From Cyanobium sp. ATX 6A2 (lineage in GTDB: Bacteria; Cyanobacteriota; Cyanobacteriia; PCC-6307; Cyanobiaceae), in the NCBI RefSeq assembly GCF_024346355.1, contig NZ_JAGQCU010000001.1:186001-250000 (forward strand): a DNA stretch of 64,000 nucleotides, given 5' to 3'. Shown here piece by piece: positions 7,119 to 37,448 of this stretch (the stretch's first letter is position 1; every line of letters starts with the position of its first letter). A program made the translations under genes and the position numbers. The notes beneath the pieces were generated by a model, which worked only from the letters and a program-made list of their open reading frames with translations, ran no database searches and was not told where the DNA came from.

Positions 7119-7191
7119 GCCCCCATCGTCTAGAGGCCTAGGACACCTCCCTTTCACGGAGGCGACAGGGGTTCGAATCCCCTTGGGGGTA
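7119..7191 (+). tRNA. tRNA-Glu (anticodon TTC)
   Basis: A complete 73-base cloverleaf. The acceptor stem GCCCCCA (7119-7125) pairs with TGGGGGT (7184-7190), and the discriminator base is A7191. The anticodon stem is CCTCC/GGAGG with loop CTTTCAC, giving anticodon TTC at 7153-7155. The T arm is AGGGGTTCGAATCCCCT-like with the invariant GTTCGAATC. CCA is not encoded. In cyanobacteria charged tRNA-Glu also feeds tetrapyrrole (chlorophyll, haem, bilin) synthesis through glutamyl-tRNA reductase, so this gene serves both translation and pigment supply. Confidence 0.97.
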
Positions 7192-35761: not shown

Positions 35762-36925
35762 GTGGATATCCAGCTCGGCCGTTCCCGCACCGTCCGTCGC
35801 GCCTATGGCATCGACGAAATTGCCCTGGTGCCGGGCGGCCGCACGGTGGATCCGGCCGTGACCGACAGCAGCTGGAGCCTGGGGGGGATTGAGCGGGAGA
35901 TCCCCATCATCGCCAGCGCCATGGATGGCGTGGTGGACGTGGCCATGGCCGTGGAGCTCAGCCGGCAGGGCGCCCTGGGGGTGCTCAACCTGGAGGGGGT
36001 GCAGTGCCGCTATGACGACCCCAACCCGGTGCTGGATCGCATCGCCGCCGTGGGCAAGGACGAGTTCGTGTCCCTGATGCAGGATCTCTACAGCCAGCCG
36101 GTACGGGAAGACCTGATCCGCAGGCGCATCGCTGAGATCAAGCAGAAGGGCGGCATCGCCGCGGTGAGCGCCACCCCGGTGGCCTCGATCAGGTTCGGCA
36201 GGGCCATCGCCGAGGCCGGCGCCGACCTGTTCTTCGTGCAGGCCACGGTGGTGAGCACCGAGCACATCGGCCCTGAAGGCCAGGAAACCCTCAATGTCGA
36301 GGCCCTCTGCCGCGACTTCGGCGTGCCGGTGGTGATCGGCAACTGCGTCACCTACGAGGTGGCCCTGAAGCTGATGCGCGCTGGTGCCGCCGGCGTGCTC
36401 GTGGGGATCGGCCCCGGCGCCGCCTGCACAAGCCGCGGCGTGCTCGGGGTGGGCATTCCCCAGGCCACCGCCGTGGCCGACTGTGCCGCCGCCCGTGACG
36501 ACTACGCCGCCGAGAGCGGCCGCCGCGTGCCCGTGATCGCCGATGGCGGCATCGTCACCGGAGGCGACATCTGCAAGTGTCTGGCCTGCGGCGCCGATGG
36601 GGTGATGATCGGGTCGCCGATCGCCCGAGCCGCCGAGGCCCCTGGCCGGGGTTTCCACTGGGGCATGGCCACCCCCAGCCCAGTGCTGCCCCGCGGCACC
36701 CGCATCAAGGTGGGCACCACCGGCAGCCTGGAGCGGATCCTGCGCGGCCCCGCCGGCCTCGACGACGGCACCCAGAATCTGCTCGGCTGCATCCGCACCT
36801 CCATGGGCACCCTGGGAGCCCGCACCCTTCAGGAGATGCAGCAGGTGGAGGTGGTGGTGGCTCCATCGCTGCTCACCGAGGGCAAGGTGTATCAGAAGGC
36901 GCAGCAGCTGGGCATGGGGAAGTAG
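35762..36925 (+). CDS. guaB: GuaB3-family IMP dehydrogenase-related protein
   Basis: A 387-residue TIM-barrel protein of the GuaB3 subfamily. Visible motifs are the substrate loop GIGPGAACTSRGVLGVG (215-231) with the catalytic Cys222 equivalent, VIADGGIVTGGDICKCL (258-274), and GADGVMIGSP (277-286). The CBS domains of classical IMP dehydrogenase are absent. In cyanobacteria GuaB3 has been linked to IMP/GMP metabolism; oxidation of IMP to XMP or reduction of GMP are the alternatives. The start is GTG 35762 (VDIQLGRSRTVRRAYG), as is usual in this group. The small RNA yfr1 and trxA follow downstream. Confidence 0.93.
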   Translation: MDIQLGRSRTVRRAYGIDEIALVPGGRTVDPAVTDSSWSLGGIEREIPIIASAMDGVVDVAMAVELSRQGALGVLNLEGVQCRYDDPNPVLDRIAAVGKDEFVSLMQDLYSQPVREDLIRRRIAEIKQKGGIAAVSATPVASIRFGRAIAEAGADLFFVQATVVSTEHIGPEGQETLNVEALCRDFGVPVVIGNCVTYEVALKLMRAGAAGVLVGIGPGAACTSRGVLGVGIPQATAVADCAAARDDYAAESGRRVPVIADGGIVTGGDICKCLACGADGVMIGSPIARAAEAPGRGFHWGMATPSPVLPRGTRIKVGTTGSLERILRGPAGLDDGTQNLLGCIRTSMGTLGARTLQEMQQVEVVVAPSLLTEGKVYQKAQQLGMGK

Positions 36926-36936
36926 GAGGCGAGGTC

Positions 36937-36942
36937 TATCTT
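36937..36942 (+). promoter_or_regulatory. Candidate -10 element of yfr1
   Basis: TATCTT (36937-36942), just after the guaB3 stop, sits 6 bases before the predicted 5' end of the Yfr1 RNA. A clear -35 is not seen, so the RNA may rely on the -10 alone or partly on read-through from guaB3. Confidence 0.45.
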
Positions 36943-36948
36943 GAGGTT

Positions 36949-37010
36949 GTGGGGGCTTCACAGCTCGCACACTCCTCACACCCTCCGGCCCGGCTCGTCC
37001 GGGCCTTTTT
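36949..37010 (+). ncRNA. yfr1: Yfr1 small regulatory RNA
   Basis: Yfr1 is a trans-acting cyanobacterial RNA of about 55-65 bases that binds target mRNAs, such as porin genes, through an unpaired ACTCCTCACAC core. That core is present at 36971-36981. Before it, GTG (36949-36951) and CAC (36959-36961) can form the 5' hairpin with a GGGGCTT loop. After it comes a perfect 7-bp GC terminator stem and five T residues. The position between guaB3 and trxA is the one reported for Yfr1 in marine Synechococcus and Prochlorococcus. The 5' end is estimated from the -10 element; the 3' end is well defined. No protein is encoded here. Confidence 0.88.
36987..37010 (+). terminator. Rho-independent terminator of yfr1
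   Basis: GGCCCGG (36987-36993) pairs perfectly with CCGGGCC (36999-37005) around loop CTCGT and is followed by TTTTT (37006-37010). It also forms the 3' hairpin of Yfr1 and would stop transcripts coming from guaB3. Confidence 0.9.
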
Positions 37011-37091
37011 GCTTCCCCCTCCAGCGCACCAGCGGCCCGGCTCGCCTCCTGCAACGCTTGATGTGGGGCCGGCAAAGCGGTCTGGACCCCT

Positions 37092-37100
37092 TGCTACATT
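37092..37100 (+). promoter_or_regulatory. Extended -10 promoter of trxA
   Basis: TGCTACATT (37092-37100) is an extended -10 element (TGN plus TACATT), 24 bases before the trxA ATG. No good -35 is needed for this class and none is seen. The predicted start is near 37107. Confidence 0.5.
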
Positions 37101-37124
37101 GCTGAAATCCCGATCCCAACAAGG

Positions 37125-37448
37125 ATGTCCAGCGCAGCCGCTGTCACCGACGCCTCCTTCGAGCAGGACGTGCTCAAGAGTGATGTGCCTGTGCTGGTCG
37201 ACTTCTGGGCGCCCTGGTGCGGCCCCTGCCGCATGGTGGCGCCGATCGTCGATGAAATCGCCAAGGAATTCGAGGGCCAGATCAAGGTGTTCAAGCTAAA
37301 CACCGACGAAAATCCCAACGTGGCCAGCCAATACGGCATCCGCAGCATTCCCACCCTGATGGTGTTCAAGGGCGGTCAGAAAGTCGACACCGTCGTCGGT
37401 GCCGTGCCCAAGACCACCCTGTCCGGCACGATCAGCAAGTACCTCTGA
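37125..37448 (+). CDS. trxA: Thioredoxin (m-type)
   Basis: Reduces disulfides in target enzymes, linking photosynthetic electron flow to metabolism (Calvin cycle enzymes, and OpcA/Zwf in this window). The 107-residue protein has the WCGPC active site at 31-35, the buried Asp in LVDFWAPW, and the cis-proline segment [14 protein letters not shown] (about 71-84). Length and sequence are typical of the essential cyanobacterial TrxA. It starts at ATG 37125 with AAGG only a few bases upstream, too close for a good ribosome site. The downstream LOG-family reading frame overlaps its last 50 bases in another frame. Confidence 0.97.

Follow-up and report, generated by a model that had tools for sequence, protein, structure and literature searches.

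A Yfr1 small RNA gene between guaB3 and trxA of Cyanobium sp. ATX 6A2, with candidate porin targets and a putative Yfr2-type antisense partner

The spacer between guaB3 and trxA in Cyanobium sp. ATX 6A2 raises the question of whether it holds a gene for the small RNA Yfr1, whether this copy deviates from the RNA that is already known, and on which partners it would act. The initial annotation, made from the letters of the DNA, had placed a Yfr1 RNA in this spacer, with its own promoter and terminator and with a 5' stem that might be shortened in this lineage. The window, i.e. the whole stretch of 64,000 nucleotides that was analysed, lies on contig 1 of a genome of 3.0 Mb in 46 contigs, and this genome was searched as a whole. 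Published work on Yfr1 and its relatives (PMC2190773, PMC2518516, PMC6778093, PMC6974561) is cited here from the available excerpts of each paper.

Identity and architecture of the element

The features taken as defining Yfr1 were a covariance score above the cut-off, a core that is unpaired within a single strand of 16-20 nt, a 5' hairpin of 6-10 bp whose stem is interrupted by no more than one bulge or internal loop, a 3' GC-rich hairpin of 6-9 bp followed by a U-tail, a location that is usually between guaB and trxA and on their strand, an abundant transcript of 54-69 nt, and target regulation through pairing of the core. The Rfam model RF01116 (Yfr1), which had been suggested as a check, matches 36949-37007 on the forward strand with 61.1 bits (cut-off 38; E 1.2e-9 in the window search), and as the match covers model positions 1-59 of 59, it is full-length. 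In the genome-wide search it is the sole Yfr1 match above the cut-off. The core lies between two hairpins, the 5' one with eight pairs and a single 1x1 mismatch, the 3' one with seven GC pairs followed by TTTTT, and the transcript predicted from the sequence would have 62 nt (Table 1). Each Yfr1-defining feature that is open to computation is present at this locus. It is therefore hardly in doubt that the element is an ortholog of Yfr1, a trans-acting small RNA gene of about 62 nt, in agreement with the initial annotation; covariance score, structure, core, synteny, -10 box and porin complements all point the same way.

Table 1. Features of the yfr1 locus, its neighbours and its candidate partner RNA; window positions unless a contig is named
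Feature	Position	Strand	Basis
guaB3, upstream neighbour, start codon uncertain	35762..36925	+	NCBIfam TIGR01304, 513.9 bits
-10 promoter box TATCTT of yfr1, without -35 consensus	36937..36942	+	TANNNT conserved
yfr1 small RNA, predicted 62 nt, predicted ends	36949..37010	+	RF01116 match, fold z
5' hairpin, 8 pairs, one 1x1 G.G mismatch	36949..36970	+	fold -10.1 kcal/mol
Conserved unpaired core ACUCCUCACAC, pairing seed	36971..36981	+	exact in 30/30 loci; unpaired probability 0.99-1.0
Intrinsic terminator, 7 GC pairs, 5-base loop, TTTTT	36987..37010	+	hairpin -13.8 kcal/mol
trxA, thioredoxin, downstream neighbour	37125..37448	+	NCBIfam TIGR01068, 139.7 bits
Cyano-1/Yfr2-type RNA (with terminator-like end to 69081; L038 1497-1600)	G000:C7:68978-69050	+	RF01701
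tRNA gene	7119..7191	+	Rfam 60.2 bits

Other matches of this kind were discarded. A second RF01116 match, on contig C46 of the same genome, reaches 31 bits, below the cut-off of 38, has CUCAUCAC in place of the core, and overlaps the end of an open reading frame together with the terminator-like hairpin of that frame, and was taken as chance. Matches to asX2 and mir-1909 near yfr1 (E 0.1 and 9.5) are far under their cut-offs, and the asX2 match rests on the yfr1 terminator read from the opposite strand.

The 11-base core ACTCCTCACAC is exact, and it is the only match with up to one mismatch in the window; as shuffled windows hold on average 0.70 such matches, the core by itself proves nothing. 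The predicted fold of the complete element has -27.0 kcal/mol (z -3.56), a value equalled in 1 of 200 shuffles, and it leaves a single strand of 16 nt (36971-36986) with the core at its start, every core base being unpaired with a probability of 0.99-1.0, as had been anticipated. The perfect GC terminator was likewise recovered: the site GGCCCGG-CTCGT-CCGGGCC-TTTTT is the sole terminator-like site in 36700-37200, where shuffles gave a mean of 0.2.

The 5' stem is the point at which the earlier description has to be corrected. It had been read as a short GTG/CAC stem, but the predicted hairpin has eight pairs interrupted by one G.G mismatch, and the proposed shortening in this lineage does not hold, as the published architecture has a 5' stem of 6-10 bp that may be interrupted once (PMC2190773). 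The mismatch is common to the family, with a standard pair at this place in 2 of 26 aligned rows. This fourth position of the 5' stem (36952 and 36967; alignment columns 4 and 20) is purine-purine in 20 of the 26 rows, with varying letters (G.G in seven, A.A in seven, G.A in five and A.G in one), and the mismatch is possibly a kept structural feature. A GAG/CTC extension of the stem, which had been considered in case transcription starts earlier, is indeed predicted to pair when the fold begins at 36943, the GAGG then pairing with CCUC of the core, but this extension is probably not transcribed, because it falls into the gap of conserved length that separates the -10 box from the predicted 5' end.

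A -10 box is indicated by conservation: in 29 of 30 loci, the distance from the end of a TANNNT hexamer to model position 1 is 6 or 7 bases, and in the thirtieth it is 9, as compared to a mean of 1.1 and a maximum of 5 in 500 composition shuffles. The claim of an own promoter thus stands in so far as the TATCTT is concerned, although a two-hexamer promoter scan found none. The Yfr1 sequence of Prochlorococcus MED4, quoted in PMC2190773, starts at the same model position (compared with locus L026), from which we infer a 5' end at about 36949.

All in all, the element is an ordinary copy of an RNA already known and matches published Yfr1 biology. It shares with Yfr1 (RF01116; Voss et al. 2007, PMC2190773) the exact core, the two hairpins, the 16-nt unpaired stretch, the U-tail and the predicted size of about 62 nt, as well as the gene order guaB-yfr1-trxA, and differs from it, as far as the excerpts of that paper describe Yfr1, by sequence drift only, with stem and spacer lengths inside the published range.

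Candidate porin targets and a probable Yfr2-type partner

On which partners would this RNA act? The exposed core would pair with (G)UGUGAGGA immediately ahead of the start codons of SLH/OprB (SomB-type) porins, and such pairing with porin mRNA would lower porin translation. The genome contains five OprB porin genes, three of which are SomB-type "iron uptake porins" by NCBIfam. The search of porin leaders that had been proposed found a core complement of 8-9 bases ending 4-8 bases before the ATG in three of the five genes; the complements in the three SomB-type porins are GTGTGAGGA, GTGTGAGGA and TGTGAGGA, with 8, 4 and 5 bases, respectively, from their ends to the ATG, and no core complement was found before the ATG of the remaining two. 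In the entire 3.0-Mb genome, the pattern TGTGAGGAN{2,14}ATG occurs five times, three times at porins, and the reversed control occurs twice; the 11-mer count by itself is not enriched (2 versus 2 for the reversed control). Across the genus, TGTGAGGAN{2,12}ATGAARC, in which the ATGAARC favours a common porin start, gave 22 sites in 12 of 13 genomes (own included) and none in reversed controls, and of the 19 sites that were parsed, all 19 open porin reading frames with an SLH start as judged by eye. When porins were taken by family (55 match rows, with loci for 32, of which five were unscorable and 27 scored), 20 of the 27 had at least 8 complement bases with the ATG 4-8 bases on and seven had not, a count without shuffled control. 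The similarity of the leaders is partly due to shared descent, the porins being paralogs.

Cofolding with Yfr1 gave a gain of -11.3 kcal/mol for the porin leader on contig C17 (1 of 100 shuffles as good), and gains of -8.1 and -7.7 kcal/mol for those on C4 and C46 (9 and 7 of 100 shuffles as good), neither of which is exceptional. The motif-less porin L033 (-0.5 kcal/mol) and the own trxA (-2.4) and guaB3 (-0.3) gained little. The strongest porin gain, -16.3 kcal/mol (3 of 100 shuffles as good), belongs to L036, a motif-less porin of the own genome, in a cofold that opens the terminator and pairs about 30 bases, seven of them in the core. Porins with and without the motif are therefore not told apart by cofold energy, which was dropped as main argument; the target argument is carried by the placement before the start codon and by the genome-wide rarity. 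A porin mRNA complement has also been published for Yfr1 of Prochlorococcus MED4. Judged from this placement and by analogy, it is quite likely that the core pairs at porin mRNA starts and lowers translation, and base pairing by Yfr1 probably reduces the expression of outer-membrane porin genes in this strain.

A second kind of candidate partner is a Cyano-1 RNA (RF01701), of which the genome holds one, with 47.6 bits at a cut-off of 41. Cyano-1 and Yfr2 are, as we presume, one family. The RNA carries at its 5' side a stretch perfectly complementary to all 11 bases of the Yfr1 core, and GTGTGAGGAGT is present; accordingly, the genome has just one further exact core-mer besides that of yfr1, on the opposite strand of this RNA, which is convergent with an adjacent gene that was read by eye as rplL. 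Cyano-1 RNAs occur in 12 of the 13 genus genomes, one in each, with GTGTGAGGAG in 11 of the 12 and a difference in the first base in the twelfth. The cofold gain of Yfr1 with its Yfr2-type RNA is -13.7 kcal/mol, and 0 of 100 shuffles were as good. Whereas Yfr1 and Yfr2 of MED4 can pair only with one mismatch and a bulge (PMC2518516), the 11 bases pair perfectly here, and the Cyano-1 consensus would likewise match the core perfectly over 11 bases. A search of the genome for Cyano-2 (RF01702) gave no match, and control sequences were equally without match. The Cyano-1 RNA is not Yfr1 itself but an antisense partner: Yfr2 is a published partner of Yfr1, it binds Nostoc Yfr1 in vitro (PMC6974561), and it relieves the repression of a MED4 porin leader by Yfr1 in E. 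coli (PMC6778093). By analogy, the single Cyano-1/Yfr2-type RNA would most likely be a sponge that titrates Yfr1.

It could also be that the roles are reversed and that Yfr1, its identity untouched, mainly serves to titrate the Yfr2-type RNA as its main partner. The perfect 11-base complement, the only cofold gain reached by no shuffle, and a published affinity of Yfr1 that is higher for Yfr2 than for ppa mRNA (PMC6778093) agree with such a role, but porin starts keep at least 8 complement bases in 20 of the 27 scored genus leaders, and in E. coli reporters it is Yfr1 that represses the MED4 porin leader and Yfr2 that relieves (PMC6778093), which makes the reversal rather unlikely. Repression of porins by Yfr1 is the reading that we prefer.

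Conservation, apparent losses and phage sequences

RF01116 matches above the cut-off were found in 53 of 60 genomes including the own one, i.e. in 52 of 59 relatives. Of these matched loci, 30 (own included) were compared in detail, and the core is exact in all of them. The flanks were those given by the initial annotation (Table 1), and in the fetched stretches guaB3 is present in 29 and trxA in all 30 loci; the trxA of L024 is truncated by the contig end, and that of L030 is about 760 bases away. The named relatives of the own trxA include those of Cyanobium sp. FGCU52, with 96% identity, and of a Synechococcaceae bin, with 99%. When 26 loci were aligned and the remaining four (L014, L023, L030 and L031, which belong to other families) omitted, 14 named pairs proved standard in 96.0% of cases over 23 distinct sequences (26 rows), as opposed to 21.7-54.2% in slid versions; seven 5' stem pairs were counted on this alignment, 96.3% of which are standard, and three pairs have changes on both sides. 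The alternative that the element is a Yfr10-type RNA, or a chance core beside a guaB3 terminator, draws on the core sequence that Yfr10 has in common with this locus, on the chance expectation for the core given above, and on the fact that a GC terminator downstream of guaB3 would be normal, but it is extremely improbable, as the core is located in a single strand between two hairpins and not, as in Yfr10, in a loop on a stem, as the Rfam Yfr1 match is full-length, and as -10 box and neighbour genes are both conserved, while the synteny of Yfr10 is, according to PMC6778093, not conserved.

Seven of the 60 genomes are without RF01116 match, and laxer filters still gave none at the cut-off. In G020 (99% complete), guaB3 and trxA are 50 bases apart, and the spacer (L193 2662-2711) contains no core. 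In G022, a 177-base spacer is without core, perhaps an instance of the loss that has been published for low-light Prochlorococcus. In G044, guaB3 is present and trxA absent from the fetched stretch. For G019 and G025 there was no guaB3 match, and for G028 and G032 only weak ones, so that the lack of yfr1 in these four may be due to gaps. In a second set of cyanobacterial trxA loci, the core was found in 22 of 28, and among the six without core only L119, from Candidatus Synechococcus spongiarum SH4, has guaB3 beside trxA; the other five may be other trxA genes. The SH4 spacer (1951-2000) also comprises 50 bases without core; as SH4 was seen in a 2.5-kb stretch, this absence applies to the guaB3-trxA spacer, and a yfr1 elsewhere is possible. 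The guaB3 of L119 was matched as two overlapping pieces in different frames, and the assembly may hold an error in this gene. Between guaB3 and trxA, yfr1 has apparently been lost in the sponge symbiont SH4 and in one relative, G020. A literature search on Yfr1 with spongiarum or symbionts, judged in part by title, found no report of a yfr1 loss.

Could Yfr1 also be carried by phages? A scan of viral contigs for the core plus GCCYG gave 87 stretches, of which 80 were taken on. Six of these passed a crude two-hairpin filter, four being related contigs, and scored 29.8-35.5 bits with the Rfam Yfr1 model, below the cut-off of 38. Of 33 relatives found via a neighbouring 138-aa protein, 32 were scanned, and the core occurs in the same four contigs only; 23 of the other 28 keep, as judged by eye, a TTGACTC or CTGACTC loop on a different stem. 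A phage-borne Yfr1 was rejected as coincidence, chiefly on the ground that these relatives have not kept the core. What these contigs contain (L247 12041-12100 and relatives among L287-L313) is a small hairpin between the stop codon of the unknown 138-aa protein and a terminator-like hairpin. The DNA polymerases closest to that of the phage, with 48-53% identity, are from a Gammaproteobacteria phage, two Pelagibacter phages and one phage without assignment, those of Pseudanabaena and Microcystis phages being more distant (39% and 37%). A viral scan for Yfr2-like RNAs gave two stretches, by eye without Cyano-1 layout or terminator in the bases shown, and no annotated phage record was matched by blastn with window positions 36880-37130.

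Implications for the genus

As the initial annotation had pointed out, protein-only pipelines miss genes such as yfr1, and the annotation given here is a correct one. The start-site complements in porins across the Cyanobium-like genus fit the published picture of porins as Yfr1 targets. More tentatively, and with considerable doubt on our side, the genus could possess a compact porin switch, consisting of one Yfr1, one Yfr2-type sponge with a perfect complement, and SomB-type porins most of which have a site of 8-9 bases before the start, a circuit whose Yfr1 end would have been dismantled in the Candidatus Synechococcus spongiarum lineage. If the loss in the sponge symbiont is true for whole genomes of this lineage, it would be a natural experiment on life without Yfr1.
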